From NCBI RefSeq assembly GCF_900111765.1, contig NZ_FOIB01000008.1, positions 124,001 to 188,000 of the forward strand: a stretch of 64,000 nt of DNA, read 5' to 3'. This document shows positions 46,814-63,662 of the stretch, one piece after another (position 1 is the stretch's first letter; every line of letters begins with the position of its first letter). The translations under genes and the position numbers were made by a program. The notes below the pieces were generated by a model that was given only the letters and a program-made list of their open reading frames with translations, was not told the origin of the DNA and ran no database searches. The stretch comes from Myxococcus fulvus. GTDB taxonomy: Bacteria > Myxococcota > Myxococcia > Myxococcales > Myxococcaceae.

Positions 46814-47650
46814 TTGCCACTGGGCGACGACAGACAGGCCATCCTCACGAAGTACGGCCCCTACGTTCGGTCCCTCGCGGCGACCGTGCGCAAGCAGTTC
46901 AACGCCCAGCTGGAGCTGGACGAGCTGGTGGCGTACGGACAGATAGGCCTGCTGGAGGCCGCCGAGCGCTTCGACCCGAAGGTGGGCGCCAACTTCCTCA
47001 CCTTCGCCCACTACCGCATCAAGGGCGCCATCTTCGATGGGCTCCGGAAGATGGGCATCCTGCGGGGCTCGGATGCCCGGGCGGCGTATGTCGGGGAGCG
47101 GGCGGCGGCGTATCTGGGGAATTTGTCGGACCGCGAGTCGGGCTCAAGCAACCGCGGCAGCTCATTCGACGATGATGTCAGTGACATCTCGGATGCTGTG
47201 CAGGGGCTGGCGATGGTGTTCGCCTCCAGCCTCGAGGGTGCGGACAGCGCGGGCTACACCGACGAGTCCCTGCCGGTGGACATCCGGCTGGAGCAGGAGC
47301 AGCTGAAGACGCGGGTGCGGGCGGCGATAGAGAAGCTCCCGGAGAAGGAGCGAAAGCTTCTTCAGGGGTACTACTTCCAGGGCAGGACGCTGGAAGAGGC
47401 GGGGGCGGAAATCGGGCAGTCGAAGAGTTGGGCGTCTCGGCTTCATGCGCGCGCCATCGACCGGCTCAAGGAACTCTTGAACGAGGAGGAGGAACTTCCT
47501 CCCACCTCGACGGATGCAAGGAGGCTGTCACATGGCGGGTCCGATGGCGGGCATCTCCGCGGCACAGGTGGCGCAGCAAAAGCTGCAGGATCAGGGCGCT
47601 CAGCAGACGACGAAGCAGGGCGCGTCGAAGTTCGACGGAGTTCTCGCTGA
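46814..47650 (+). CDS. FliA/WhiG-type (sigma-28) RNA polymerase sigma factor
   Basis: 278 residues from a TTG at 46814. Region 2 is clear (LELDELVAYGQIGLLEAAERFDP, FLTFAHYRIKGAIFDGLRKM), region 3 runs to about residue 150 with an Asp/Ser-rich insert, and region 4 is LPEKERKLLQGYYFQGRTLEE followed by the recognition helix KSWASRLHARAIDRLK. This is the FliA subfamily that reads flagellar late promoters. Non-flagellar T3S systems normally lack one. The last ~60 residues are basic and disordered, and the final 119 bases overlap sctI in another frame. It probably drives the three sigma-28-type promoters in this window. Confidence 0.88.
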   Translation: MPLGDDRQAILTKYGPYVRSLAATVRKQFNAQLELDELVAYGQIGLLEAAERFDPKVGANFLTFAHYRIKGAIFDGLRKMGILRGSDARAAYVGERAAAYLGNLSDRESGSSNRGSSFDDDVSDISDAVQGLAMVFASSLEGADSAGYTDESLPVDIRLEQEQLKTRVRAAIEKLPEKERKLLQGYYFQGRTLEEAGAEIGQSKSWASRLHARAIDRLKELLNEEEELPPTSTDARRLSHGGSDGGHLRGTGGAAKAAGSGRSADDEAGRVEVRRSSR

Positions 47651-48083
47651 CAAGGCGCAGGGCGCCGGTCAGGTGGACGCCGCGCAGGGCGTGAACAAGG
47701 CCCAGGCGACGCAGAAGACGGACATGGTCCGGCAGGTGGAGACGGTCAACAAGACGGAGAAGGCGGGCCTGAACAAGGTCAACGCCAACGCCGCCCAGCC
47801 CGTGTCCGCGAAGGCGGCCGAGCCCGTCGCCGCGAAGACGGAGACCGGCAAGACGGCCAAGGCCACCGACATGATGGAGCAGGTGCTCGGTGACCTGGAG
47901 AAGGGCCAGGGCAACCTGGAGAAGATCATCTCCCAGGCCGCCAGCGGCAAGCAGTTCTCCAACGCGGAGCTGCTCTCCCTGCAGGCGTCCATGTATCAGT
48001 ACACCCAGCAGCTGGACCTGACGAGCAAGGTGGTGGAGAAGGCGACCACCGGTCTCAAGGACGTCGTCAAGACGCAGGTCTGA
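47532..48083 (+). CDS. sctI: T3S inner-rod protein SctI
   Basis: 183 residues. The ATG at 47532 has AGGAGG seven bases upstream, better than the earlier ATG at 47514. Long Ala/Gln/Lys-rich N-terminal region, then a C-terminal helix LLSLQASMYQYTQQLDLTSK followed by VVEKATTGLKDVVKTQ, the SctI/YscI/HrpB signature (LQMQ...TSKVV.KAT..L..L.K.Q). SctI forms the rod that joins the export gate to the needle. The start lies inside the sigma gene, so the two are translationally linked. Confidence 0.85.
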   Translation: MAGPMAGISAAQVAQQKLQDQGAQQTTKQGASKFDGVLADKAQGAGQVDAAQGVNKAQATQKTDMVRQVETVNKTEKAGLNKVNANAAQPVSAKAAEPVAAKTETGKTAKATDMMEQVLGDLEKGQGNLEKIISQAASGKQFSNAELLSLQASMYQYTQQLDLTSKVVEKATTGLKDVVKTQV

Positions 48084-48186: not shown

Positions 48187-49002
48187 ATGATTCGCCGACC
48201 GCAAGCGTTTGTCGCCCCGCTCCTCGCCCTCGTGCTCGTGACGGGCTGTCACATCGAGCTCCAGCACGACCTGAGTGAGGCGGACGCCAACGAAATCTAC
48301 GTCCTGCTCAGCAAGAACGGCATCAACGCGAAGAAGGAGAAGGAGGAGGGCGGCAACGAGGTCCGGTTCATGATCACCGTGCCCAAGACGGATGCCGCCG
48401 AGGCCGCGGAGCTGCTCAAGCTCAACTCGCTTCCGCGTCCGGTGGAGAAGGGCCTGTCCCACTTCGCCAAGGGAAGCATGGTGCCCACCGCCACGGAGGA
48501 GCGAGCCATGCTCCTCAAGGCGATGGGCGGCGAGGTCTCCAACGCGCTCAATCAGATCGACGGCGTGTTGGAAGCACGCGCCATCGTCAGCGTCCCGGAG
48601 AACAACGACCTGACGCAGCCGGAGAACAAGCCGATGCCGTCCGCGTCGGTGTTCATCAAGTTCCGGCCTGGCGCGGAGGGCAAGCCGCCCATCGACGTCA
48701 GCGCGGTGAAGTCGTTCGTCGCCACGGCGGTTCCGGAGATGAAGCCGGACGCGGTGACGGTGCTGATGACGCCCGCGCTGGGGCCCAAGGCGGAGAAGAC
48801 CGACGAGAACCGGCAGCAGGACGTGCTGGGCCTGCGCATGACGGCCTCCAGCGCCAGCCAGTTCAAGGTGATGATCGCCGGCGCCTTCGCGCTCATCCTG
48901 GGGATGATGGGCGTCACGGCGTGGTCCATCATGCGCGGTGGTGGAGGCAATGCCCCCACGGCGCGTGGCCCCCGCCCCCGGGTCCGCCCGCCCGAGGCCT
49001 GA
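48187..49002 (+). CDS. sctJ: T3S inner-membrane ring lipoprotein SctJ
   Basis: 271 residues from ATG 48187 (GTG at 48181 possible). Lipobox VTGC, then the YscJ/FliF-like domains: SEADANEIYVLLSKNGINA, the Asn-rich loop, EGELSNALNQIDGV-type motif (here GGEVSNALNQIDGVLEARAIVSVPE), and a C-terminal transmembrane helix (FKVMIAGAFALILGMMGVTAW). SctJ forms the inner MS ring. The C-terminal tail is short and basic. No SctD partner gene was found in the window. Confidence 0.95.
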   Translation: MIRRPQAFVAPLLALVLVTGCHIELQHDLSEADANEIYVLLSKNGINAKKEKEEGGNEVRFMITVPKTDAAEAAELLKLNSLPRPVEKGLSHFAKGSMVPTATEERAMLLKAMGGEVSNALNQIDGVLEARAIVSVPENNDLTQPENKPMPSASVFIKFRPGAEGKPPIDVSAVKSFVATAVPEMKPDAVTVLMTPALGPKAEKTDENRQQDVLGLRMTASSASQFKVMIAGAFALILGMMGVTAWSIMRGGGGNAPTARGPRPRVRPPEA

Positions 49003-49076: not shown

Positions 49077-51572
49077 TTGGACTCGTTCTTCACCTCGCTC
49101 AACAAGCGCCAGAGCATGCTGCTGCTGACCGCCGTGACGTTCGGCGGGCAGGAGAGCCTGGGCGCGATGGAGCACCTCCCGACGGAGGAAGGTGAGCTCT
49201 TGCGCCACCGTGCGCAGGAGATCCTCCAGATTCCTCGCGACAAGCGCATCCCGGCGCTGGTCCAGGAGATCAAGCGGCTGGTGAAGGACCGCCGCGGGCA
49301 GCTGTGGACCGCGGAGCCGGAGCGGCTGGCGGCGCTGCTGCAGCGCGAGCGTGGGGCGCTGGTGGAGATCGTCCTGCGCGCGCTGCCCGCGCCCCTGGCC
49401 GAGGCCGTGCGCGGCCACCTGCCGCCGCCCCGGGTGAAGCTGACGCGCGAGGTCCGGCCGCAGGTGCTGGACATCGTCCGGTGGAAGCTCGAGGAGGCGC
49501 TGGCGCGCGAGACGGGCGACTCGCAGTCCGCGGGGTTCAAGTTCTCCGACGTGCTCCTGCTGACGCAGCGCGAGCTGTTCACGGTGTGCGACCGGTTGGG
49601 CGCGCGCGTGCTGGGGCCGGCGCTGGCGGGGCTTCCCGACGCGGAGCGCGAGGCCCTGTTCGAGCCGCTGCCTCCGGACCTGAAGCTGCTCGCCTCCAAG
49701 TCGGTGGCGGCGAACGCGCCGCGCAAGCTGCCCGAGGAGGACGCTCGCGCGCAGTTGGAGCAGCACGACGCGCTGAGGAATCCGGCGGGCTCCATCCGCA
49801 GCGCGGGCGTGCAGCGCCTGGTGCGCGCGTGCGTGGCCCAGTCCGCGGAGTTCGCCGCGCGCATGGTGGAGAAGTACCGGGGCGAGTTCGGCGGGCTCAT
49901 CGCGAAGTGGCTGCGCGAGGAGCGAAACCGGCAACCGGCGCGGGGTGACGGTGGCCGCACGGACATCGTCATGGACCTGGAGCGGCTTGCCTCGCGAGGG
50001 CTCATCGAGCGCCCGGTGCGCCTGGCCACGCCCCCGCCGCCGCGTCAGTCCGCGGTGCTGCCGCCTCCGCCCGGTGCGCGCAAGGCCGCCGCGGCCGCCG
50101 CCGCTGCACGTCCCGCCGTGCCTCCCGCGGGTCGGGAGGCGGCGCCTCCCTCGGGGCGGGATGTCGCGAGTCCTCCTCCTCGTGAGCCCGCCGCCGCGCG
50201 CCCCGCGCCGGGGGCTCCCAAGGCCGCGGCCGGACAGGGTGGGACGGTCTCCCGTCGTCCCCCTGGCGCGGAGCCCGCAGCCCGGCGCGACTTCATGGCC
50301 GAGCGCGCCGCGAGGAACGCGGGCGCCATGTCCAGCCGCGAGGGCTCGCCTGTCGCGCGCCCCAAGGACGGGGCCTCGGATGGCTCGGCGATGCATCGGG
50401 TTCCGCCTCGTCGCGACCCTGGGGCCTCCCCGGAGGTGTCGGGTGGGGCGCGGGACGCCCGGCGAGACCCCGCGGCCCCGGTGGCCCGCAGGGACCCGTC
50501 TGGAGCGGAGCCCCGGTCCGCGCGTCCCGGACGGGTGGATCCGGAAGGGGCCCGCATTGGACCGCCTCCGTCTCGCCTGGGGCAGGGTGGGGCTCGTCCC
50601 CGTCCGTCGAGCGCGGCAGCGGGCGCGCCCGAGGCTCCGGCACGTGCTCGCATCGGACCGCCTCCTTCGCGGCTGGGTGGCCCTCGTCCGTCGAGCGCGG
50701 CCGCCGGTGAGCCCATGCCTCCTGGCGCCCGAGAGCGTTCCCGTGTGGCCCCCGACGCCGATGGTTCGCGGATAGGGCCCGCGGGTGATGGCTCCCGTGT
50801 AGCGCCGGCCGCCGGGGGCTCACGCGTGGCTCCCGCCGGTGATGGTTCGCGCGTGGGGCCCGCCGGTGATGGTTCGCGCGTGGCACCGGCCGCCGGAGGC
50901 TCCCGCGTGGCTCCCGCTGCGGATGGCTCGCGAGTGGCTCCCGCCGGTGATGGTTCGCGTGTGGCACCGGCCGCCGGAGGCTCCCGCGTGGCTCCCGCCG
51001 GTGATGGTTCGCGTGTGGGGCCCGCCGGGGGCTCCCGGGTAGCGCCTGCCGGTGATGGTTCCCGTGTGGGACCCGCCGGGGGCTCTCGGGTAGCGCCTGC
51101 CGGTGACGGCTCCCGAGTGGCGCCTGCCGGTGATGGCTCTCGCGTGGCACCCGCTGGTGATGGCTCCCGTGTGGGGCCCGCCGGTGCCTCCCGGGTAGCG
51201 CCCGCGGCCGATGGCTCCCGGGTAGCGCCCGCGGCTGGGGGCTCTCGCATCCAGCGTCCCCCCGAGGCAGGGTCGCGCGTGCGGCCTCGCCCGGAAGCCT
51301 CCGCGTCCCAGGACGCTCCGGAGGTCTCGCGTGTGTTCCGCTCGCGCTCGTCGGTCTCCATCGCGGCGGTGCGCCCCGAGCCTCCCCGTGAGGGTGGGGC
51401 GGAGCGGCCTCCTCGGGTGCTGGCCGGGCGGGCTGGCACCTCCGCGGGGTCGGCCCCCGCGGGCGGGCAGGAGGGGACCGCCGTGCAGCGCAGGCCGCGT
51501 TCACCGTCCGGGACGGACGACTCTTCGTCCTCGGGCTCGGGCGGGCGTGGACCTCGCGGCGGAACGCGCTAG
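49077..51572 (+). CDS. FliG-like protein with long repeat tail, in the sctK position
   Basis: 831 residues from a TTG at 49077 (GAGG upstream). Residues 1-290 are helical. The segment PERLAALLQRERGALVEIVL followed by RALPAPLAEAVRGHLP has the spacing of the FliG middle domain (LA.LL..E....I..IL..LP...A..V...LP). The part after 310 is disordered: Pro/Ala/Arg stretches, GPPPSRLG boxes, then about 19 copies of an 8-9-residue unit GDGSRVAPA (561-726), and a basic end. It lies between SctJ and SctL, where SctK is encoded in other systems, so it may be the adaptor between ring and sorting platform. The FliG relation is by pattern only. Confidence 0.6.
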   Translation: MDSFFTSLNKRQSMLLLTAVTFGGQESLGAMEHLPTEEGELLRHRAQEILQIPRDKRIPALVQEIKRLVKDRRGQLWTAEPERLAALLQRERGALVEIVLRALPAPLAEAVRGHLPPPRVKLTREVRPQVLDIVRWKLEEALARETGDSQSAGFKFSDVLLLTQRELFTVCDRLGARVLGPALAGLPDAEREALFEPLPPDLKLLASKSVAANAPRKLPEEDARAQLEQHDALRNPAGSIRSAGVQRLVRACVAQSAEFAARMVEKYRGEFGGLIAKWLREERNRQPARGDGGRTDIVMDLERLASRGLIERPVRLATPPPPRQSAVLPPPPGARKAAAAAAAARPAVPPAGREAAPPSGRDVASPPPREPAAARPAPGAPKAAAGQGGTVSRRPPGAEPAARRDFMAERAARNAGAMSSREGSPVARPKDGASDGSAMHRVPPRRDPGASPEVSGGARDARRDPAAPVARRDPSGAEPRSARPGRVDPEGARIGPPPSRLGQGGARPRPSSAAAGAPEAPARARIGPPPSRLGGPRPSSAAAGEPMPPGARERSRVAPDADGSRIGPAGDGSRVAPAAGGSRVAPAGDGSRVGPAGDGSRVAPAAGGSRVAPAADGSRVAPAGDGSRVAPAAGGSRVAPAGDGSRVGPAGGSRVAPAGDGSRVGPAGGSRVAPAGDGSRVAPAGDGSRVAPAGDGSRVGPAGASRVAPAADGSRVAPAAGGSRIQRPPEAGSRVRPRPEASASQDAPEVSRVFRSRSSVSIAAVRPEPPREGGAERPPRVLAGRAGTSAGSAPAGGQEGTAVQRRPRSPSGTDDSSSSGSGGRGPRGGTR
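50758..51255 (+). repeat. 24-27-bp in-frame tandem repeat (GDGSRVAPA)
   Basis: About 19 consecutive units of 24-27 bases encoding G-D/G-G-S-R-V-A/G-P-A. Spacing of Arg every eight or nine residues makes an extended, positively charged tail. The number of units is likely to vary between strains. Confidence 0.85.
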
Positions 51573-51596: not shown

Positions 51597-52271
51597 ATGG
51601 CGATCGGCAAGGTGATCAAGGGAGACGGGACGGCCGAGCCGTCCGTCGTGTCGGAGCGGCCGGTGTTGCGGCCTCCGCGCGCGGGGGTGATGAACGCCGA
51701 GGTCTTCGAGGCGCGCCAGGGCGCCCAGGGCATCCTCGAGGAGGCGCAGCGCGAGAAGGAGCGCATCCTCGCGGAGGCGCAGCGTGAGCGTGAGGCGCTC
51801 CTCGTGAAGACCCGCGAGGAGGGACGCCAGGAGGGACTCGCCCAGGCCACGGAGATCATCCTCCGGGCGAAGATGCAGGCGGGCGAGATCCTCGCCACCT
51901 ACGAGCAGGACGTCATCGCCCTGGGGCTGCGCGTCGGGGAGAAGATCATCGGCCGGAGCCTGGAGAAGGACCCGGACCTGATGCTGGAGCTGTGCGCGTC
52001 GGCCATCGACAACCTGCGCAGCGCGCGCTCCATGGTGCTGCGGGTGCATCCCAAGACGGCGGCGGTGCTGCGCGCGAAGAAGCCGGTGTTGATGGAGCTC
52101 ATCGGCCGCGCGGTGGACCTGGCCATCAAGGAGGACCCCGAGGTGGCCCCGGTGGGCTGCATCGTCCAGACGGAGTTCGGCACGGTGGACGCGCAGCTGC
52201 CCACGCAGCTGGAGATGCTCCAGAGCGTGCTCTTGCCCGACCAGAACGGCCCGAAGGAAGGCCCGGCGTAG
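51597..52271 (+). CDS. sctL: T3S ATPase stator SctL (FliH/YscL family)
   Basis: 224 residues from ATG 51597 (AAGGAG upstream). A long charged coiled coil at about 40-95 (ILEEAQREKERILAEAQRER) precedes the FliH/SctL globular domain with LGLRVGEKIIGRSLEKDPD and VGCIVQTEFGTVDAQLPTQL. SctL dimers hold the ATPase SctN under the export gate. It sits directly upstream of sctN with 25 bases between them, the usual order. Confidence 0.93.
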   Translation: MAIGKVIKGDGTAEPSVVSERPVLRPPRAGVMNAEVFEARQGAQGILEEAQREKERILAEAQREREALLVKTREEGRQEGLAQATEIILRAKMQAGEILATYEQDVIALGLRVGEKIIGRSLEKDPDLMLELCASAIDNLRSARSMVLRVHPKTAAVLRAKKPVLMELIGRAVDLAIKEDPEVAPVGCIVQTEFGTVDAQLPTQLEMLQSVLLPDQNGPKEGPA

Positions 52272-52296: not shown

Positions 52297-53610
52297 ATGG
52301 CCATCGACCTCTCGCGCTATCTCGACCTCATCAAGGACGCCCAGACGGTCCGCGTCCGCGGCCGCGTCACCGAGCTGACGGGCCTCATCATCAAGGCGAG
52401 CGTCCCCAACGTCCGCGTGGGCGAGCTGGTGCTCATCAAGAGCCGCGCCCGCGGCGCCGTGAAGGCCGAGGTCGTCGGCTTCCAGGGCGACGAGGTCATG
52501 CTCATGCCCCTGGGCGAGCTGTACGGCATCGGCCCGGACAGCGAGGTGGTCCCCACCGGCAGGCCCTTGAGCATCAAGTGCGGCGAGGCGCTCCTGGGCC
52601 GCGTGCTCAACGGCATCGGCGAGCCGATGGACGGCAGCCCCCTCCCAGAAGAGGGGCTCATCGACTGGTCCGTGGACCGCGACTGTCCGGACCCCTTCAC
52701 CCGTCAGCGCATCGAGCGGCCGCTGCCCCTGGGCGTGCGCTGCATCGACGGACTGCTCACCGTGGGCGAGGGCCAGCGCGTGGGCCTCTTCGCAGGCTCC
52801 GGCGTCGGCAAGTCGACGCTGATGGGACAAATAGCGCGCAACACCCAGGCCGACCTGTGCGTCGTGGCGCTCATCGGCGAGCGTGGTCGCGAGGTGCGCG
52901 AGTTCATCGAGGACGCCATGGGCGAGGAGGGCATGAAGCGCTCCGTGCTCGTGTGCGCCACGTCCGACCAGCCCAGCCTGGTGCGTCTGCGCGCCGCCTA
53001 CGTCGCCACCGCCATCGCCGAGTACTTCCGCGAGCGCGGCGGCAACGTGCTCTTCATGCTCGACACGGTGACGCGTCTGGCGCGTGCCCAGCGTGAGATT
53101 GGCCTCGCGGTGGGGGAGCCCCCGGCGCGTCAGGGCTATCCGCCGAGCGTGTTCTCCATGCTGCCGCGCATCCTGGAGCGCACGGGCAACTCGCAGAAGG
53201 GCAAGTGCACCGCCATCTACACGTGCCTGGTGGCCGGCGGTGACATGGAGGAGCCCATCGCGGACGAGGTCCGCGGTATTCTCGACGGCCACTTCATCCT
53301 CAACCGCGCCCTGGGTGAGCGAAACCAGTGGCCCGCCATGGACGTGCTCGCGAGCCTCAGCCGTGTGATGAGCGGCATCGTCTCCAAGGAGCACAAGAAG
53401 GCCGCCGGCAAGCTGCGCGAGACGCTGGCCACGTACGAGAAGCAGCGCGACCTCATCCTGCTGGGCGCCTACCAGTACGGGACGGACCCCCGCACGGACT
53501 ACGCCATCGACAAGTACGACGCCATCATCGACTTCCTCAAGCAGGACACCCACTCCAACTCCGGCTTCGAGGAGACGGTGGAGCAGCTGGTGGCCTTGTT
53601 CGAGGAGTGA
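52297..53610 (+). CDS. sctN: T3S ATPase SctN
   Basis: 437 residues, the family's length. Walker A AGSGVGKST with Lys172, catalytic-region GERGREVREF, Walker B NVLFMLDTVTR, and the arginine-finger-containing C-terminal third. The hexamer unfolds and hands over substrates and releases chaperones. GAGEPPARQGYPPSVFSMLP-type substrate motif (here VGEPPARQGYPPSVF) is intact. The flagellar FliI and SctN are closely related; context decides for SctN. A hairpin (53611-53632) follows. Confidence 0.96.
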   Translation: MAIDLSRYLDLIKDAQTVRVRGRVTELTGLIIKASVPNVRVGELVLIKSRARGAVKAEVVGFQGDEVMLMPLGELYGIGPDSEVVPTGRPLSIKCGEALLGRVLNGIGEPMDGSPLPEEGLIDWSVDRDCPDPFTRQRIERPLPLGVRCIDGLLTVGEGQRVGLFAGSGVGKSTLMGQIARNTQADLCVVALIGERGREVREFIEDAMGEEGMKRSVLVCATSDQPSLVRLRAAYVATAIAEYFRERGGNVLFMLDTVTRLARAQREIGLAVGEPPARQGYPPSVFSMLPRILERTGNSQKGKCTAIYTCLVAGGDMEEPIADEVRGILDGHFILNRALGERNQWPAMDVLASLSRVMSGIVSKEHKKAAGKLRETLATYEKQRDLILLGAYQYGTDPRTDYAIDKYDAIIDFLKQDTHSNSGFEETVEQLVALFEE

Positions 53611-53696: not shown

Positions 53697-54185
53697 ATGC
53701 CCCCGTACCGGTTGCAGACCCTGCTGGACATGCGGACCCGGGCCAAGGAGGAGGCCGAGCAGGCCTTCTCCGACGCCATCAAGGCCCTGGAGCGCGAGAA
53801 GGTGGAGCTCCAGCGCCTGATGGACGAGCTGGAGCGGCGCAAGCGCGAGCGCAAGGAGAAGGTCGCCGCCTACCTCAAGGAGATCATGGCCAAGGGTGCC
53901 GGCATCAACGGCATGAACATGATGGGCCGCTTCGAGGAGCGCCTGAAGGACGAGGAGGCGCAGGTGGCGCTGGAGGTCGAGCGTCAGCGTGAAGCGGTGA
54001 AGGTGGCCGAGCGCCTGGTCGAGCAGCGGCGCCGGGAGATGGCCGAGGCGGCCAAGGAGCTCAAGGCCATCGAGAAGCACAAGGAGACCTGGCAGAAGCA
54101 GGTGAAGCACGAGCGCCAGCAGCGCGAGGAGTTGAGCCAGGAGGAGATTGGCAACGCCTTGTTCCTGGCTCGGCAGCGCAAGTAA
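53697..54185 (+). CDS. sctO: T3S ATPase stalk protein SctO (FliJ/YscO family)
   Basis: 162 residues forming one long antiparallel coiled coil (almost all Glu, Lys, Arg, Ala, Leu; a break near GAGINGMNMMG at about residue 67). This is the size and shape of FliJ/SctO, which inserts into the ATPase hexamer and contacts the export gate. It lies directly after sctN, the conserved position. Confidence 0.88.
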   Translation: MPPYRLQTLLDMRTRAKEEAEQAFSDAIKALEREKVELQRLMDELERRKRERKEKVAAYLKEIMAKGAGINGMNMMGRFEERLKDEEAQVALEVERQREAVKVAERLVEQRRREMAEAAKELKAIEKHKETWQKQVKHERQQREELSQEEIGNALFLARQRK

Positions 54186-54218: not shown

Positions 54219-55118
54219 ATGAGCCGTGTCGACGACGACCGTGAAGCAGCGCGCCTGGCCGAGCGCATCATGCAGGAGAAGAAGCTCGCCGAGGGCCAGG
54301 CCAAGAAGCGCCAGGAGGGCACGTCCGCCTTCCAGAAGCTGATGCAGCCGCAGGCGCAGCCCCAGGCGACGGCGCCCACCCAGACGCCCCAGACCCCGGG
54401 CGGTCTGGCACGTCAGGTGCTGGCCAAGGCGACCCAGCAGGGGAAGACCTTCGGCGAGCACCTCCAGCAGCCGCCCCAGATGGGCGGCAACCCCGCCTCC
54501 ACGCTGGCCCAGGCGCAGCGCCGCGGCGACACGAACACCTCGGAGGCTCGCTCCGGCTCGCGCGCCTCGGACGCCAAGGAGACCCAGCGCACCTCCGAGG
54601 GGCGTGAGAAGGACCTGGACAAGGCCGACTCGGCCCTGGGGCAGGTCAGCTCCGAGCGCGGCGCGGCCATCCGCGCGGACGCGGACGCGGGCGGCAAGGG
54701 CAGCGGCGGTGGCGGTGGCAAGGAGGACAAGAAGGGCGGCGGCGGCACGGAGATGGGGGCGGGCTTCCGCTTCAACCCCGCGCTGATGGCGCCGGTGCCA
54801 GTGGCCAAGCCCAAGGACACCGCGGGCTCCGAGCGGCTGCGCGCCATGGCGAGCGAGATCGCCCAGAAGATCGTCGACCGCGTGCGCGTGGGGACGAACG
54901 CCGCGGGCCTGGCCGAGTTCCAGATTGATTTGCGTGGGGATGTGCTCAACGGCCTGTCCATCAAGGTCAGCGCGCGCAACGGGAAGATCTCCGCCACCTT
55001 CAGCGGCACCAACCGTGACGTGCTGAAGATGCTCGAGGAGCAGAGCGACGGGCTGCGCACCGCGCTCGGGGGCCGTGGGCTGAAGCTCGAGACGGTCCGC
55101 TTCGAGGCGAAGACATGA
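54219..55118 (+). CDS. sctP: Needle-length / hook-length control protein SctP (FliK-like)
   Basis: 299 residues. A disordered Gln/Pro/Ala/Gly/Ser-rich first two-thirds, usable as a molecular ruler, then a C-terminal T3S4-type domain at about 200-299 (FQIDLRGDVLNGLSIKVSARNGKISATFSG ... VLKMLEEQSDGLRTALGGRGLKLETVRF, given here in parts), the FliK/SctP substrate-switch fold. SctP contacts SctU to change substrate class. Its stop overlaps the sctQ start by four bases. Confidence 0.8.
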   Translation: MSRVDDDREAARLAERIMQEKKLAEGQAKKRQEGTSAFQKLMQPQAQPQATAPTQTPQTPGGLARQVLAKATQQGKTFGEHLQQPPQMGGNPASTLAQAQRRGDTNTSEARSGSRASDAKETQRTSEGREKDLDKADSALGQVSSERGAAIRADADAGGKGSGGGGGKEDKKGGGGTEMGAGFRFNPALMAPVPVAKPKDTAGSERLRAMASEIAQKIVDRVRVGTNAAGLAEFQIDLRGDVLNGLSIKVSARNGKISATFSGTNRDVLKMLEEQSDGLRTALGGRGLKLETVRFEAKT

Positions 55119-56539
55119 GCGTGGAGCCGGAGGACGAGTCTCCCGGCGTGCACGAGCGCACGATGCTCGTGGACCTGCGCAACCTCAAGCCCGTCAAGCC
55201 TCCTCCCGAGAAGGCCGGCGCGCCGGAGAAGGTGGAGCCGCGTCCCGAGAAGGTGGAGCGTCCCGAGAGGGTCGAGCGGAGCGCCTGGCGTCCCTTCACG
55301 TTCAAGGGGCTGGAGAAGGTGTCGCGCGCGCAGGGGCAGCTCGCCGAGCGGCTGCGCTGGCTGACGCCCAACGCGGGGACGCTGACGGGGGTGTCCGCCC
55401 GGCTCAAGGGGCTCTTCGACGCGGAGGTCGGCCTGTCGCTGGAGTCCGTGCAGGTGCGGCCCATGGCAGAGCTGCGCCGCTTCCTGGGCGACCCGACGTT
55501 CCTCGCGGTGCTGGCGCCCGGGGCGCTGCCGGGGCGGGCGGTGCTCGAGGTGGAGCTGGCGCTGGCGCACACGGCGGTGGACCTGCTGTTGGGCGGCGCG
55601 GGCGAGACGGTGGGCTTGAGGCCCCTGACGGACATCGAGGAGGGCGTGATGGGCTACGTCATCCTGGAGGCGCTGCGGGTGCTGGTGCCCGCGCTCCAGG
55701 CCGGCGTGCCTCGCCCGAGGCTGGACGGGGTCGCCCGAGGCGTGGACGAGGTGTCCGCGCGCCTGGGCGACGACGGGCCGATGTTGACGGTGCACCTGAA
55801 CGCCACGCTGGGTCCGCACGGCGGCATGGTGCGGTTCGTGGTGCCGGCGGCGGTGCTGGAGGCGGCCGAGCCCGCGGTGGAGAGCGCCCAGCGGCGTGCC
55901 CGCGTGAAGGCGGACCTGGCGGCGAACGCGGGGCGGCTGTCGGCGGTGCGCGGGTGGCTGCGGGCGGAGATTGGCACGGCGGAGCTGACCACCCAGGACC
56001 TGGCGAGCCTGCGCGTCAAGGACGTGGTCCTGGTGGACGTGCTGTCGGCGCGGCCGGACCGGGGCGAGCCGGGCACGGCTCAGCTGCGGCTGGGCGCGGG
56101 GCGCTCGGGGCACGCCGAGGCCGAGGTCTTCGTCGAGGACGGGCGCTACCAGGCGCGCATCACCCGCATCATCCCCGGGGAGTCGGGGAACCCGCGCTCG
56201 GCCACCGAGGAGGGTGGGGGGCGGGACGAGGAAGAGGATTTCACCAACCCGGAGCTGGACGTTCCTCCGGAGCTCGAAGGGGCGCCCTTGGACGACGTGA
56301 ACAAGCCGGACGGAAGCGACCTGCTGGGCGACGTGCCGCTGCAGATCGCCGTGGAGCTGGCGCGCATCCCGGTCACCGCCGAGCAGGTGGTGGGCATGCG
56401 GGCCGGTCAGGTCATCGAGCTGAGCCGGGGCCCCGGCGAGCCGGTGGAGTTGTCCATCAACGGCAAGGTGGTGGCCCGCGGTGAGCTGGTGGAGATGGAA
56501 GGCCAGCTCGGCGTGCGCGTCACCACGCTGGCGAGCTGA
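55115..56539 (+). CDS. sctQ: T3S C-ring / sorting-platform protein SctQ
   Basis: 474 residues. An N-terminal linker, a FliM-like middle region, a first SPOA-like domain at about 285-345, and a clear C-terminal SPOA domain at about 400-474 (VPLQIAVELARIPVTAEQVV, GQVIELSRGPGEPVELSING, VARGELVEMEGQLGVRV), the hallmark of FliN/SctQ. It forms the cytosolic sorting platform with SctL and SctN. The four-base overlap with sctP indicates coupled translation. An internal start producing the C-terminal SPOA alone, as in other SctQ genes, is possible but not evident. Confidence 0.92.
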   Translation: MSVEPEDESPGVHERTMLVDLRNLKPVKPPPEKAGAPEKVEPRPEKVERPERVERSAWRPFTFKGLEKVSRAQGQLAERLRWLTPNAGTLTGVSARLKGLFDAEVGLSLESVQVRPMAELRRFLGDPTFLAVLAPGALPGRAVLEVELALAHTAVDLLLGGAGETVGLRPLTDIEEGVMGYVILEALRVLVPALQAGVPRPRLDGVARGVDEVSARLGDDGPMLTVHLNATLGPHGGMVRFVVPAAVLEAAEPAVESAQRRARVKADLAANAGRLSAVRGWLRAEIGTAELTTQDLASLRVKDVVLVDVLSARPDRGEPGTAQLRLGAGRSGHAEAEVFVEDGRYQARITRIIPGESGNPRSATEEGGGRDEEEDFTNPELDVPPELEGAPLDDVNKPDGSDLLGDVPLQIAVELARIPVTAEQVVGMRAGQVIELSRGPGEPVELSINGKVVARGELVEMEGQLGVRVTTLAS

Positions 56540-56627: not shown

Positions 56628-57566
56628 ATGGCAGTCCTCCGCAACCCCCTCTCGCGCCTGACCCTGGGCGTCACGCTGCTGCTCGCGCCCGCGTCCGTGT
56701 GGGCGCAGGCGCCCGTGGCGAGTGCGCCGTCCGTTCCCGCCGCGCCCACCGGGGCCGTGGCGCCGCCGCAGACAGGGCAGGGCGCCTCGGTCGCGCCCGT
56801 CCCCGCCTCGCCTCGTGCGGCCCCAGCGCCTTCTCCGCGCGTCGCTTCCGAGTCGGCCTCGTCGCCCGCCGCGACCTCCGTGGCCGCCGGAGCCGCGGCG
56901 CCTTCCGGACGAGCCCCGGGCGATACGACGGCCCCGAGTGCGCCCACGATGGCCGCCGGCGCTGCCGCACCTTCCGGGCGCGCCACGGGCGCGATGGCCG
57001 TGCCCACGACGGCTGCGCCGGCCGCGGTGCCTGCTCCGGGTGAGTCGTCCGCCGAAAGCGCGCCCGCCGCTCCTCTCGAGAGCGCCCCCGTGAAGGCCGC
57101 CGAGGCGACGCGTCGCACGGGCGAGGCGCCCGTCTGGGAGGACCCGTCCATCGATGCGGCCGCGGCGGCGGAGGCGGAGCCGGAGAGCATGGGCTGGATG
57201 CTCGTGCGCACCCTGATGGTCCTGGGCGCGGTGGTGGCGTCCATCTACCTGACGTTGAACGTGGGCCTGCGCCGGTTGATGGGCCTGCAGTCCGCCTCCC
57301 CGGGGCGGCAGACGGTGGTCTCCGTGGTGGAGCGGCTCCCCCTGGACCCCAAGCGCGCGCTCTTCGTGGTGAAGGCCGCGGACGAATACCTGTTGGTGGG
57401 CGGCGGCGAGGCGGGCCTGCAGTTGCTGTCGAAGCTGGATGCCGAAGCCGTGGAGCGCATCCGGGCACAGCGCCCGCAGACGAACGTGGTTCCACTCAGC
57501 CCTTTCCTCCAGAAGCTCCTTTCCCGTCGCTCCGGTGGCTCGTCGTCCGAGCCCCCTGGCGCCTGA
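56628..57566 (+). CDS. FliO-like protein, next to sctR
   Basis: 312 residues from ATG 56628. Signal-like N-terminus (LTLGVTLLLAPASVWAQ), a 140-residue Ala/Pro-rich linker, a transmembrane helix (MLVRTLMVLGAVVASIYLTL), then the FliO pattern: VVSVVERLPLDPKRALFVVK and YLLVGGGEAGLQLLSKL. FliO assists assembly of the FliP ring in flagella and is normally absent from non-flagellar T3S systems. Here it stands immediately before sctR, as fliO precedes fliP. The long linker is unusual for FliO. The identification rests on motif and position together. Confidence 0.78.
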   Translation: MAVLRNPLSRLTLGVTLLLAPASVWAQAPVASAPSVPAAPTGAVAPPQTGQGASVAPVPASPRAAPAPSPRVASESASSPAATSVAAGAAAPSGRAPGDTTAPSAPTMAAGAAAPSGRATGAMAVPTTAAPAAVPAPGESSAESAPAAPLESAPVKAAEATRRTGEAPVWEDPSIDAAAAAEAEPESMGWMLVRTLMVLGAVVASIYLTLNVGLRRLMGLQSASPGRQTVVSVVERLPLDPKRALFVVKAADEYLLVGGGEAGLQLLSKLDAEAVERIRAQRPQTNVVPLSPFLQKLLSRRSGGSSSEPPGA

Positions 57567-57579
57567 TGGCCCCCTTCCC

Positions 57580-58410
57580 GTGAACGCCCTGACACCCGCC
57601 CTCCCTCGTCTTCCGCGCGTCGCGCCCTGGCTGTTCGCGGCCGTGGTGTCGCTGCATCCCTTCATCGCGCTCGCGCAGAAAAAGGGGCGCCCGGGCGGCA
57701 TCCCCGACTCCGTCGCCAACGAAGCGGTGAGCGCGGACTCCTTCACCTCGCGCCCCCTCGTCCTCATCCTCGCGCTCGCCGCCATGGGCCTGGTGCCCTT
57801 CGCGCTGATGATGGTGACGAGCTTCGTGAAGATCTCCGTCGTCCTCTCCATCGTCCGCTCGGCGCTGGGCACCCAGCAGATTCCCCCCACCCAGGTGATT
57901 ACGGGCCTGGCCGTCATCCTCACCGTCTACATCATGGCCCCCGTGGGCACCTCGATGTACCGGGCCTCCGAGGTGGACATCTGGGACACCGGCGGCGCGG
58001 GCAACTTCTCCTCCGCCAAGGTGGGCACGCTCCTGGAGGGCGCCGACCGCGCCAAGGAACCCCTGCGCGCGTGGCTGATGAAGAAGGTCACGGTGAAGGA
58101 CCGCTCGCTCTTCTACAACCTCGCCAAGAAGATGCGCACGGGCGAGGACCGCGACTCGGTGAAGAGCGAGGACTTCATGGTCATCATCCCCGCCTTCGTC
58201 GTGTCCGAATTGAAGGAGGCCTTCCAGATTGGCTTCCTGCTCTTCGTCCCGTTCATCGTCATCGACATGGTGGTGGCCAACATCCTGCTCGCGCTCGGCA
58301 TGCACATGCTGTCGCCGACCACCATCTCCATGCCCTTCAAGCTGCTCCTGTTCGTGCTCGTGGACGGCTGGTACCTCATCGCCAAGGGCCTGGTCGTCGG
58401 CTACCTGTAA
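57580..58410 (+). CDS. sctR: T3S export-gate protein SctR (FliP family)
   Basis: 276 residues from GTG 57580, 13 bases after the FliO-like gene. An N-terminal signal-like helix (LFAAVVSLHPFIALAQ) resembles the cleaved signal of flagellar FliP and is uncommon in SctR. Then the family motifs: LVPFALMMVTSFVKISVVLSI, ALGTQQIPPTQVITGLAVIL, the periplasmic loop, and IGFLLFVPFIVIDMVVANIL ... GMHMLSPTTISMPFKLLLF. Five copies form the gate with SctS and SctT. Confidence 0.95.
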   Translation: MNALTPALPRLPRVAPWLFAAVVSLHPFIALAQKKGRPGGIPDSVANEAVSADSFTSRPLVLILALAAMGLVPFALMMVTSFVKISVVLSIVRSALGTQQIPPTQVITGLAVILTVYIMAPVGTSMYRASEVDIWDTGGAGNFSSAKVGTLLEGADRAKEPLRAWLMKKVTVKDRSLFYNLAKKMRTGEDRDSVKSEDFMVIIPAFVVSELKEAFQIGFLLFVPFIVIDMVVANILLALGMHMLSPTTISMPFKLLLFVLVDGWYLIAKGLVVGYL

Positions 58411-58423
58411 GAGGAAGGCACCC

Positions 58424-58687
58424 ATGAACCAGCTCACGTTCATCACCCAGGAAGCGCTGTTCCTGGTGCTCGTGGTCTCGGCCCCGCCGGTGTTGATGAG
58501 CCTGTTGGTGGGCTTCATGATCTCCCTGTTCCAGGCGACCACGCAGATCCAGGAGCAGACGCTCACCTTCGCCCCCAAGGTCATCATCGTCTTCGGGGTG
58601 CTCGCCATGACGGGCCCGTGGATCGGCAGCCAGTTGGTGCGCTTCACGTTCCACGTCTTCGACCGGTTCCCCGCCCTCATCAAATGA
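58424..58687 (+). CDS. sctS: T3S export-gate protein SctS (FliQ family)
   Basis: 87 residues, two transmembrane helices (ALFLVLVVSAPPVLMSLLVG and VIIVFGVLAMTGPWIGSQLV) joined by FQATTQIQEQTLTFAPK, the family's most conserved stretch. Four copies pack around the SctR5-SctT ring. GAGGAAGG precedes the ATG. The stop overlaps the sctT start by four bases. Confidence 0.95.
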   Translation: MNQLTFITQEALFLVLVVSAPPVLMSLLVGFMISLFQATTQIQEQTLTFAPKVIIVFGVLAMTGPWIGSQLVRFTFHVFDRFPALIK

Positions 58688-59502
58688 ACGCCGCGGAACT
58701 CGTGTCCGAGCTGGCTGCCCGGACCAACTTCTCCGCCGCCATCTTCACGGTCGCCCTGCTCATGTGCCGGGTGATGCCCGTGCTCATCTTCAGCCCGTTC
58801 CTGGGCGGCGAGGTGGTGCCCACGGAGATGAAGATGGGCATCGGCCTGACGCTGGCCATCGTCCTGTATCCGTCCATCGCGCACTCGGTGACGACCATTC
58901 CCCTGAGCGCGCTGCCGTACATCGCGCTGATGGCCAAGGAGATCTTCATCGGCTTCTCCATGGCCTTCGTCGTCAACGGCGTGTTCGAGGCCGCGCGCAT
59001 CGCCGGCACGCTCGCGGACACCATGTCCGGCAGCAACAACGCCCAGCTCTACGTGCCGCAGCTCGGCCAACAAGTCTCGCTCTTCTCCAACCTGAAGGTG
59101 CAGCTGTCCGTGGTGCTCTTCCTCACCCTGGACGGCCACCACCTGGTCATCCGCGCCCTGGCGGACAGCCTCACCACGGTGCCGCTGGATGGCTTCCCGC
59201 GCTTCAGCCAGGGCTCGTGGACCTTCTTCGACGTGCTCATCCGCGTCTTCGCGGACATGCTGCGCGTCAGCCTGGCCCTGGCGGCCCCCGCCACGCTGGC
59301 CGCGTTCCTCACCGACGTGGCGCTGGGCGCCATCAACCGCGTGGCGCCGCAAATCCAGGTGTTCTTCATCTCCATGGCCATCAAGCCGCTCGTCGGCGTG
59401 CTCATCACCTTCCTGGTGTTGGGGACGTTGATTGGCCGCATCCAGGACGAGCTGGCCCACATGCTGAAGGTGCTCCACGACGCCCTTCGGCTGCTGGCCT
59501 AG
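58684..59502 (+). CDS. sctT: T3S export-gate protein SctT (FliR family)
   Basis: 272 residues with about six transmembrane helices. Family motifs are MPVLIFSPFLGGEVVPTEMK, KEIFIGFSMAFVVNGVFEAA and GSNNAQLYVPQLGQQVSLFS. It closes the SctR ring. The gene order R-S-T-U and coupling to sctS are those of both flagella and injectisomes. Confidence 0.95.
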   Translation: MNAAELVSELAARTNFSAAIFTVALLMCRVMPVLIFSPFLGGEVVPTEMKMGIGLTLAIVLYPSIAHSVTTIPLSALPYIALMAKEIFIGFSMAFVVNGVFEAARIAGTLADTMSGSNNAQLYVPQLGQQVSLFSNLKVQLSVVLFLTLDGHHLVIRALADSLTTVPLDGFPRFSQGSWTFFDVLIRVFADMLRVSLALAAPATLAAFLTDVALGAINRVAPQIQVFFISMAIKPLVGVLITFLVLGTLIGRIQDELAHMLKVLHDALRLLA

Positions 59503-59526: not shown

Positions 59527-60609
59527 ATGTCCGACGAGAGTGGAGACAAGACAGAAGAACCGTCGCAGAAGAAGCTCGACGACTCTCGCAAGAAGGGTCA
59601 GGTCTGGAAGAGCAAGGACCTGAGCGGCGTGGCGGTGCTCGTGGTGGGCCTGGCCGCCCTGAAGGCGAGCTGGGACAACGTCGAGAAGGAGATCTCCAGC
59701 CTCTTCCTCTTCAGCTTCGACCACATGGCCCGGGGCGGGGACCTGTCCGACGCGACGGGGCAGCTGCTCTACCTGGGCGTGCGCGCGCTCTTGCTCGTGA
59801 CGATGCCGGTGCTCCTGGGCGGCGCGGTGATTGGCGGACTGATGGAGTTCCTGCAGGTGGGCTCCCTGTTCACCATGGACCCGCTGATGCCCAAGCTGGA
59901 CAAGCTCAACCCGCTGGGCGGGTTGAAGAACATGTTCAGCAAGAAGTCGCTGGTGGAGCTGCTCAAGAACCTCATCAAGATTTCGGTCACCGCCTACGTC
60001 GTCTACGGCGTGGTGCGCGACGCGATGCCCATGGTGCTGGAGACGGTGCGCCAGGACACGCACACCATCATGGTCATCATGGGGGAGCTGGTGACGCGCG
60101 TGGCCGCGCGCGTGGCGCTGCTCTTCGTCATCTTCGCCATCTTCGACGTCTGGTGGCAGCGCAAGTCCTTCATGAAGGACATGATGATGTCCAAGGACGA
60201 GGTGAAGAAGGAGTACAAGGAGAGCGAAGGCGACCCGCACCACAAGGCCAAGCGCAAGGAGTTCCACCAGGAGATCATGGAGGGCCAGCAGATGGAGGCC
60301 GTGCGGGACGCGGACGTCATCGTCACCAACCCCGACCACGTGGCCGTCGCCCTCAAGTATGACCGGGAGAAGGACGGCGCCCCCCGGGTCCTCGCCAAGG
60401 GCGTGGACCACAAGGCCGAGCGCATCAAGGGCATCGCCCGCGAGCAGGAAGTCCCCACGCTGCGCAACGTGCCGCTGGCGCACGCGCTCCTGCGGGTGGA
60501 GGTGGGCCACGAGGTGCCGGAGGAGCTGTACGACGCGGTCGCCGAGGTCCTCAACTTCGTCTACGAGCTGAAGAACGGCGCCCCCCAGGCCCCCGCGGCC
60601 CGCGCATGA
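59527..60609 (+). CDS. sctU: T3S switch protein SctU (FlhB family) with NPDH cleavage site
   Basis: 360 residues: four transmembrane helices (about 35-205), a charged linker, and the cytosolic autoprotease domain. The cleavage motif reads N-P-D-H (residues 268-271) instead of N-P-T-H: the Asn-Pro needed for self-cleavage is kept, and Thr is replaced by Asp. The following HVAVALKYDREKDGAPRVLAKG and VPTLRNVPLAHALLR are typical. The usual PTH loop interacts with the substrate-switch protein, so the change may affect cleavage or SctP recognition. Confidence 0.95.
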   Translation: MSDESGDKTEEPSQKKLDDSRKKGQVWKSKDLSGVAVLVVGLAALKASWDNVEKEISSLFLFSFDHMARGGDLSDATGQLLYLGVRALLLVTMPVLLGGAVIGGLMEFLQVGSLFTMDPLMPKLDKLNPLGGLKNMFSKKSLVELLKNLIKISVTAYVVYGVVRDAMPMVLETVRQDTHTIMVIMGELVTRVAARVALLFVIFAIFDVWWQRKSFMKDMMMSKDEVKKEYKESEGDPHHKAKRKEFHQEIMEGQQMEAVRDADVIVTNPDHVAVALKYDREKDGAPRVLAKGVDHKAERIKGIAREQEVPTLRNVPLAHALLRVEVGHEVPEELYDAVAEVLNFVYELKNGAPQAPAARA

Positions 60610-60655: not shown

Positions 60656-60937
60656 ATGAGTGACGACGCCGAAATCGCCATCGCGCTGAAGTACGACAAG
60701 GAGAATGACGGCGCTCCGCGCGTGGTGGCCAAGGGCCTGCGGCTCAAGGCGGAGAAGATTCGCGCCATCGCCAAGGAGCACGGCATCCCCGTGATGCGCA
60801 ACGTGCCCCTGGCCAACGCGCTGTACCGGGTGGACGTGGGCCAGGAGGTGCCCGAGGAGCTGTACGACGCGGTGGCCGAGGTCCTCAACTTCATCTACGA
60901 GCTCCAGCGGGAACAGGCCGCCTCGGGCGGCAGGTAG
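60656..60937 (+). CDS. Stand-alone FlhB/SctU C-terminal domain protein
   Basis: 93 residues matching only the part of SctU after the cleavage site: AIALKYDKENDGAPRVVAKG, IPVMRNVPLANALYRVDVGQ, PEELYDAVAEVLNFIYEL, nearly identical to the end of the preceding sctU (VPEELYDAVAEVLNF in both). It lacks the membrane part and the Asn-Pro-x-His. Free FlhB_C-like proteins (YlqH/FlhX type) exist beside flagellar genes and can partly replace the cleaved piece. Here, directly after sctU, it looks like a duplication of that gene's 3' end. Confidence 0.85.
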   Translation: MSDDAEIAIALKYDKENDGAPRVVAKGLRLKAEKIRAIAKEHGIPVMRNVPLANALYRVDVGQEVPEELYDAVAEVLNFIYELQREQAASGGR

Positions 60938-61474: not shown

Positions 61475-61939
61475 ATGCCGGAGGACCCTCAGGACGAGGC
61501 ACAGCTGGCGGCCCGGCTGCAGCGTTGGGCGGATGGAAAGTCCACGCTGCGCGAGGTGCGCGGCTATTCCAACGACGAGCTCTACGCCATCGCCAAGACG
61601 GCGTACTTCTTCTTCTACCAGGGGCGCATCAACGAGGCCCGCACGCTCTTCCAGGGCCTGTACGCCGTGAACCCCACGGACGGCTACTTCGCCAAGGCCC
61701 TGGGCGTGGTGGAGATGGCCGCCGGCAACGGGCAGGGCGCCCTGGCCGCCTTCGACGTGGCCGCCAAGCTTTCCCCGCAGGACCCGTCCGTCTACGTGGG
61801 CCGCGCCGAGGTGAAACTGGCCCTGGGTCAGAAGCAGCAGGCGCTGGAGGACCTTCGCCGCGCCGCGGCGATGACGCCCCAGGATGATCCCGTGGTGCGC
61901 AAGGCCGGCGCCATGGTGACGGCGCTCACCCGGCGCTGA
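61475..61939 (+). CDS. SycD/LcrH-like TPR chaperone
   Basis: 154 residues with three TPRs. The sequence ELYAIAKTAYFFFYQGRINE-ARTLFQGLYAVNPTDGYF has the first-repeat pattern of class II T3S chaperones (SycD/LcrH/IpgC), which hold translocator proteins before export. The rest follows with LGVVEMAAGNGQGALAAFDVA and ALEDLRRAAAM. No translocator gene was recognised nearby, so the client is unknown. Confidence 0.8.
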   Translation: MPEDPQDEAQLAARLQRWADGKSTLREVRGYSNDELYAIAKTAYFFFYQGRINEARTLFQGLYAVNPTDGYFAKALGVVEMAAGNGQGALAAFDVAAKLSPQDPSVYVGRAEVKLALGQKQQALEDLRRAAAMTPQDDPVVRKAGAMVTALTRR

Positions 61940-62061
61940 GTCCGGTGCGCTCCGGCGTCCGGCTCCGGCCAGACGCCGGGTAGGTGAGCCTGGAACAGTC
62001 TGCTAGGCTCGCCGGGTTCACTCACCCCAACCCTCTTTGTGGAGAGGTGGAGAGTCATTCG

Positions 62062-62655
62062 ATGAGCACGCAGAAGGCGAAGATGGGCGCGCTGCCGCCA
62101 GAGCCCGCGGCGCTGGTGGAGAAGCGCGAGAAGCTGCTGGCGGAGCTGGAGAAGCAGTCGAAGACGGCCGAGGGCACCTTCCTCCAGGTCGTCCGCACCA
62201 TGAAGATGCTGGTGTCGTCCACCACGCCCGGCGCCCCGTTCGATGAGCGGCTCTATGCCGACGTGTCCGGCGCGCTCGAGCGCTTCATGGCGGACCCCAT
62301 CCTCCCCGTTCCTCCCGCGCTGGGCATGGTGGTGTCGTACCTGTCCGAGCGCCTGAACACCTACGGGATGACCATTCAGAACGCCGTCAAGGAGGCGAAC
62401 CCGGAGATGCACGCGAAGCTCGCGTTCACGCCTCCGAGCGCCCCGCAGGCCCCCGCCCCGGCGGCGCCGGCCGCGGCGGCCCGCGCCCCCGCCGCCAAGG
62501 ATGGCTTCGAGAGCGGCTCTTCTCGCCGGGGCCTGGCCCTGGACCCCGAGGCCAGCCCCCCTCCGCCCGCGGCGGACCCGAAGAACGAGCAGCAGAAGCT
62601 GGAGGGGTTCAAGGCCTGGATGAAGAACCCGAGCCTTGGAAAGATCAAGGGTTAG
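62062..62655 (+). CDS. Unknown protein of the T3S cluster, 197 residues
   Basis: Start at 62062 (GGAGAG upstream); an earlier ATG at 61984 is less likely. Residues 15-120 are helical (VEKREKLLAELEKQSKTAEG, FDERLYADVSGALERFMAD, PALGMVVSYLSERLNTYG). Residues 120-197 are Pro/Ala-rich and disordered. Not recognised. Position between chaperone and needle candidate suggests a secreted or accessory component. Confidence 0.6.
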   Translation: MSTQKAKMGALPPEPAALVEKREKLLAELEKQSKTAEGTFLQVVRTMKMLVSSTTPGAPFDERLYADVSGALERFMADPILPVPPALGMVVSYLSERLNTYGMTIQNAVKEANPEMHAKLAFTPPSAPQAPAPAAPAAAARAPAAKDGFESGSSRRGLALDPEASPPPPAADPKNEQQKLEGFKAWMKNPSLGKIKG

Positions 62656-63174: not shown

Positions 63175-63206
63175 AATCCCTTCAACCCATCTTTTTGGAG
63201 AAACCC

Positions 63207-63662
63207 ATGGTCGCTCCTGTCAACGGCGGTTCCCGCTCCATCCCCTCGCAGAAGACCGCGTCGGAGTCCACGACCCAGACCCCGTCGGATCCGGCCGCGG
63301 AGCGGGCCAAGCAGAAGTCCACCATGGACGGCATCCGCAAGAAGGACGAGACCAAGCTGACCGGGGGAGATCGCGAGAACTACGCGAACGCCAAGGGCAC
63401 GGACCTGCTGCTCGAGAACAAGCCGTTCCTCGGCTTCTTCCCCGACTCCGTGTCGGAGACCATCGCCAAGAAGATGGATGAGGACGTCGCCAGCTACCTG
63501 AAGCAGCATCCGGATGCGTCCCTGAAGGACATCGACAGCCACATCGGCGAGCGCTTCAAGACGCACATGTTCAGCGCCGTGGTCGCCCAGAAGGGCGTGG
63601 ACATGGCCATCGCGAACCTCAAGAAGCAGCTGCAGAAGATCCGCGACGGCTTCGACGACTAG
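63207..63662 (+). CDS. Possible T3S substrate or accessory protein, 151 residues
   Basis: Start ATG 63207 (GGAG upstream). A Ser/Thr/Gln-rich polar N-terminus of about 40 residues, typical of T3S secretion signals. Then a mainly helical, charged body (DRENYANAKGTDLLLENKPF, SETIAKKMDEDVASYLKQHP) and a C-terminal amphipathic helix (GVDMAIANLKKQLQKIRDGF). No family recognised. It follows the needle candidate and its own weak sigma-28-like site; it could be a secreted early substrate, tip protein or regulator. Confidence 0.6.
   Translation: MVAPVNGGSRSIPSQKTASESTTQTPSDPAAERAKQKSTMDGIRKKDETKLTGGDRENYANAKGTDLLLENKPFLGFFPDSVSETIAKKMDEDVASYLKQHPDASLKDIDSHIGERFKTHMFSAVVAQKGVDMAIANLKKQLQKIRDGFDD

Follow-up and report, generated by a model that had tools for sequence, protein, structure and literature searches.

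The stretch of DNA analysed here (the window: 64,000 nucleotides of Myxococcus fulvus, contig NZ_FOIB01000008.1) carries, at positions 56628-57566 of the forward strand, a gene whose product is very probably a true FliO of a non-flagellar type III secretion system (T3SS). This system in all likelihood corresponds to the M. xanthus T3SS*, and the protein most likely works in it as the flagellar FliO does. The observed basis comprises homology, gene position, co-occurrence, purifying selection and the absence of flagellin and rod genes. A first-pass annotation of this DNA had presented the protein as unexpected on the grounds that FliO is flagellum-specific. This premise is out of date: FliO is frequent in the non-flagellar T3SSs of Myxococcota, both M. 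xanthus systems being named, and also occurs in some Pseudomonadota (PNAS 2025, PMC12403147). Its presence in a myxobacterial non-flagellar T3SS is already published, and the window provides a further example.

The fliO reading frame starts with an ATG and encodes 312 amino acids. In the PF04347 search that had been proposed as a check, residues 214-286 match the Pfam FliO family with 42 bits (E 9.9e-11), above the cut-off of 22. Against TIGR03500, the NCBIfam equivalog model of flagellar FliO, the protein scores 45.5 bits (E 5.9e-12) and stays below the equivalog cut-off of 55.25, a miss that is to be expected since it belongs to a diverged subfamily; judged by its sequence it is a member of the FliO family, and equivalence to flagellar FliO is not claimed. 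When orthologues from diverse Myxococcota are aligned, PF04347 is the sole family matched, by 39/39 of them. Profile-profile comparison, named beforehand as the step that could overturn the first-pass claim of a FliO homologue, returned a FliO match instead: the orthologue profile aligns to a set of 21 flagellar FliOs from Myxococcota with a probability of 97.9 (E 5.8e-13), and profile-profile alignment of the FliO of the second T3SS in this genome gives 93.8 (E 1.7e-7).

From its N-terminus the protein comprises a signal-like stretch (56628-56708, ending in LLLAPASVWAQ; hydrophobic stretch 1.91), a linker rich in Ala, Pro, Ser and Thr that is probably periplasmic (56709-57188), a membrane helix (57189-57278; hydropathy 2.04) and a beta domain, predicted to be cytoplasmic, whose four-stranded core (57318-57437) contains VERLPLDPKRALFVVK, the motif that had been quoted as characteristic of FliO. 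In the AlphaFold (AF2) model, residues 33-62 of the modelled piece form the helix (pLDDT 90-98) and residues 76-83, 89-95, 98-105 and 108-115 the strands, for which block means of pLDDT are mostly 93-95. One membrane helix and a small four-stranded antiparallel beta sheet thus make up the FliO core, and the same core is described in PMC12403147. Conservation is limited to the helix and the beta domain, and the core is under purifying selection (dN/dS about 0.2-0.4 among near relatives). A sequence search of the core against the PDB returned nothing up to E 1, comparison of the model with a library of viral structures gave no meaningful match, and a scan for promoters and terminators around fliO found nothing.

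In the flagellum, FliO keeps FliP from being proteolysed, favours formation of the FliP-FliR complex and is absent from the finished basal body (PMC5542435). By analogy, the window protein is most likely a membrane chaperone for the assembly of the SctR ring in a needleless T3SS. It would be held in the inner membrane by its single helix with the beta domain in the cytoplasm, would guard newly made SctR against degradation, would aid the formation of the SctR ring and the acceptance of SctT, and would leave the export gate once finished; the tight coupling of fliO to sctR would bring both proteins to the membrane together. This role is the one most simply proposed because the same helix-plus-beta-domain protein is found here coupled to an SctR with a FliP-like signal.

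The linker might point to another role. It extends over about 170 residues from the signal to the membrane helix in our segmentation and is 66% Ala, Pro, Ser and Thr. The Ala/Pro arm singled out by the first-pass annotation is real, but its unusualness was overstated, as the length varies from 37 to 171 residues across relatives, differs even among close ones and is greatest in the genus Myxococcus. One could imagine that the FliO fold has been kept for a different task, for instance to tether the basal body to the cell wall via this long periplasmic arm, in line with the LysM or AMIN domains that some Myxococcota FliOs carry outside the cytoplasm (PMC12403147). We consider this unlikely, since a Pfam scan detects no domain in the arm of the window protein and the arm varies in length while only the helix and the beta domain are conserved; nothing suggests that the length of the linker serves a specific function.

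The cluster to which fliO belongs lies entirely on the forward strand and reads, in order: sctJ, encoding the FliF-like inner ring lipoprotein (48187-49002; PF01514 E 5.2e-24; TIGR02544 144.4, below the cut-off of 161.95), a FliG-like gene, sctL (fliH; 51597-52271; PF02108 57.1 > 24.1), the ATPase gene sctN (52297-53610; TIGR02546 654.8 > 604.75), sctO in the position of fliJ (53697-54185; YscO-like PF16789 E 8.4e-50), the fliK-like sctP (54219-55118; PF02120 30.8 > 29.8), sctQ, encoding a FliM/N-like C-ring protein (55115-56539; TIGR02551 171.8 > 100.8), fliO, sctR (57580-58410), sctS (fliQ; 58424-58687; PF01313 E 7.7e-28), sctT (fliR; 58684-59502; PF01311 E 2.8e-55), sctU (flhB; 59527-60609; TIGR01404 392.5 > 358), directly followed by a stand-alone FlhB/SctU C-terminal cytoplasmic domain (60656-60937; PF01312 E 5.2e-29, covering only profile positions 260-335), and a gene for an LcrH/SycD-type secretion chaperone (61475-61939; TIGR02552 110.9 > 104.8). 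The SctV/FlhA gene lies 407 bases past the end of the window. The export set of a non-flagellar T3SS is complete, with SctR, SctN, SctQ and SctU above their cut-offs, SctS, SctT and SctO matched and SctV/FlhA adjoining. SctR scores 231.4 bits against the SctR model TIGR01102 (cut-off 208.6) and only 202.1 against the FliP model (cut-off 217.45); since FliO matches its family, a FliO-family protein is present in a non-flagellar system. In the genome, rated 100% complete, neither Flagellin_N nor Flg_bb_rod has a match, control genomes being positive, and no secretin or needle gene was matched among the window genes scanned. Judging by its gene content, the cluster is most likely the counterpart of the predation T3SS* of M. 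xanthus (MXAN_2434-2464).

Upstream of sctJ lies a FliA/WhiG-like sigma factor gene (46814-47650, forward strand), whose best NCBIfam match, TIGR02479 (E 1.5e-33), falls below its cut-off; a FliA-like sigma gene precedes the T3SS in 15 related clusters within the family, and one distant family shows the same arrangement. Two further regions of the locus can be mentioned. An open reading frame between the sigma factor gene and sctJ (47481-48083) has a C-terminus that resembles, by eye, the inner-rod protein SctI, and two open reading frames after the chaperone gene (61984-62655 and 63195-63662), which have no family match, could encode T3SS substrates.

The stop codon of fliO is separated by 13 bases from the GTG start of sctR at 57580, as the first-pass annotation had it, and a stop/start overlap or a short gap is found at this junction in nearly all loci. 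The distribution of FliO among myxobacteria, which had been suggested for examination, agrees with the close association. PF04347 is present in 118 of the 145 genomes of the order and PF00813 (FliP/SctR) in 122. A dedicated profile places FliO directly upstream of sctR or fliP in 81/81 Myxococcota loci read; 20 of these (phylum-level) lie outside the training set of the profile, with a weakest E of 0.0045, while for the other loci, part of which served for training, the count is partly circular. A true absence of FliO from genomes that lack it in the PF04347 counts, such as G042, was considered and rejected at least in that case, where the dedicated profile detects FliO and the absence reflects a detection limit. 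In the same genome as the window, the second T3SS (contig C2) likewise has FliO between sctQ and sctR. The picture differs in canonical injectisome loci: in 6/6 of those in which sctQ abuts sctR, all from non-pathogenic bacteria, fliO is absent from between the two genes and there is no room for it; in a seventh, from Pandoraea, a divergent gene precedes sctR. A second difference concerns SctR itself. The window protein begins with a signal-like stretch, WLFAAVVSLHPFIALA-Q, which bears out the FliP-like signal sequence noticed at first pass, and such an N-terminus is found in 47/47 SctRs of the window type versus 0/7 canonical SctRs, all seven of which start at the first membrane helix.

These patterns bear on the question whether FliO was retained or recruited. 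The SctR/FliP tree resolves the window type (47 rows), the second T3SS, flagellar FliP and canonical SctR, and the FliO tree yields the same three groups as that of SctR/FliP, with the minimum number of changes (two). Given these matching groups, and since the Myxo systems are the earliest to diverge within the non-flagellar T3SSs (PMC3459982), shared descent and retention from a flagellar ancestor fit better than recent recruitment, without being proven. Recruitment at a later stage, from the flagellar operon of a myxobacterial relative with insertion before sctR, would be compatible with the weak support of the T3SS-FliO branch (52/84 on 87 columns), but it would have to account for FliO groups that mirror those of SctR/FliP with two changes only, and for a gene position and coupling to sctR that are alike across many families of Myxococcota; we consider it quite unlikely. 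The ancestral assembly pathway put forward by the first-pass annotation agrees with the tree groups and with how early the Myxo systems diverge, but it is not proven, and FliO could also have been gained from a flagellum at an early stage. That FliO is a functionless relic of a lost flagellum is highly improbable: flagellin and rod genes are indeed absent from the genome, but the gene is under purifying selection and conserved throughout the phylum, and in M. xanthus the T3SS* serves to lyse prey (PMC10433427).

The part of the cluster that deserves most follow-up is the gene between sctJ and sctL (49077-51572, forward strand), at the place where flagellar loci have fliG and injectisome loci have sctK. 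Its product consists of a conserved domain of 300 residues (49077-49976), 49-89% identical across 15 relatives, and a low-complexity tail rich in Ala, Pro and Gly, which measures roughly 530 residues here and 156-531 in relatives. In comparison with the Pfam FliG families (PF01706/PF14841), FliG_C is matched by 16/16 orthologues, with 3.2e-11 as the best E and 1 as the limit, and FliG_M weakly by seven; the window protein itself reaches 22.4 bits against FliG_C, just under the cut-off of 23.3, and one distant orthologue scores above the FliG_M cut-off (25.8 vs 25). A profile of the homologues finds FliG in the PDB (1lkv, E 2.1e-5). When the model is compared with known structures, FliG accounts for the 13 top-scoring chains out of 951 aligned (Z 6.1-9.4; the overall rmsd is large in multi-domain matches), and the middle domain alone reaches Z 8.2 with an rmsd of 2.6 over 71 residues; the best E of a Foldseek search with the model is only 0.025. 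The product appears to be a FliG homologue that folds like the middle and C-terminal domains of FliG. It is conserved in Myxococcaceae, the nearest named relatives are Myxococcus species, and M. xanthus is among the matches. Orthologues at about 25% identity occur in two distant families, in one of them between sctJ and sctL and in the other adjacent to sctJ; among the named loci, sctJ is directly upstream in 47/47 and sctL is seen downstream in 41. The alignment with T. maritima FliG was read at the ALKG, KR, KDE and VR positions of FliG_C, which we take to be the torque positions with their stator-facing charges. The lysine of ALKG is an alanine in the homologue and the other positions lose the charge pattern, so that the protein appears to be without the torque-residue pattern of FliG.

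SctK/NolU was considered as a sequence relative of this protein and rejected, with an hhalign probability of 4.3 and a C-terminal half scoring below column-shuffled controls; only a weak structural hint connects the two (Z 4.8 to PscK, 6uie). Abby and Rocha (2012) described Myxo T3SSs as lacking FliG (PMC3459982), whereas a homologue is present both here and in M. xanthus. No published report of a FliG homologue in a Myxo T3SS was found in the literature searched, and its occurrence is apparently unreported. An assembly that bears the name Comamonas sp. KCTC 72670 (L200) contains the FliG-like gene of Myxococcus at 84% identity beside sctJ and sctL, and is probably mislabelled or contaminated. 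An Azospirillum plasmid (L152:4405-5433) has an unusual flagellar locus with fliF, fliH, fliN and fliP followed by a gene annotated as FliG, which the FliG-like profile of the window matches weakly (E 0.0028).

The occurrence of a FliG relative in the same cluster as FliO suggests that this machine has kept several flagellar parts. A broader reading is about as likely as not. In it, the predation T3SS of myxobacteria would be a living intermediate with a flagellar-style assembly and ring module arranged in the flagellar operon order: FliO with a signal-bearing SctR, a FliG-type ring adaptor that occupies the fliG/sctK position but has no torque residues, a sigma factor resembling FliA, and an additional copy of the FlhB C-terminal domain. 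The SctK of injectisomes might then descend from this FliG or have replaced it. Finding FliO outside flagella raises the possibility that the assembly aid for SctR did not arise as a flagellar novelty but is an ancient component since lost from injectisomes, and a step in the origin of the injectisome becomes testable in a harmless laboratory predator. Should the FliG homologue be confirmed, the gene content published for the non-flagellar T3SS that diverges earliest would have to be changed, and the finding would be relevant to the unsolved question of where the sorting platform came from.

How does the window compare with known systems? With canonical injectisome operons it shares the order sctQ-sctR-sctS-sctT-sctU; they differ in that their sctQ abuts sctR without fliO (six non-pathogen loci) and in that their SctR is signal-less. 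With flagellar FliO (PF04347), the window protein has in common one membrane helix, a cytoplasmic beta domain and a gene placed directly before that of FliP or its counterpart, but its system has neither flagellin nor rod, and it forms a sequence group of its own. The M. xanthus T3SS*, the "Myxo" NF-T3SS of Abby and Rocha, resembles the window cluster in SctJ, L, N, Q, RSTU(V) and the LcrH-type chaperone, and no secretin or needle gene was recognised among the window genes tested; the component list of T3SS* in a review names neither FliO nor FliG (PMC10433427). The two M. xanthus FliOs, WP_020477618.1 and WP_216608840.1 (PMC12403147), belong to the same family, kind of system and phylum as the window protein, whose genome likewise has two T3SSs, each with its FliO. 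No qualitative difference between these proteins and that of the window was found, the Ala/Pro arm of the latter simply being among the longest.
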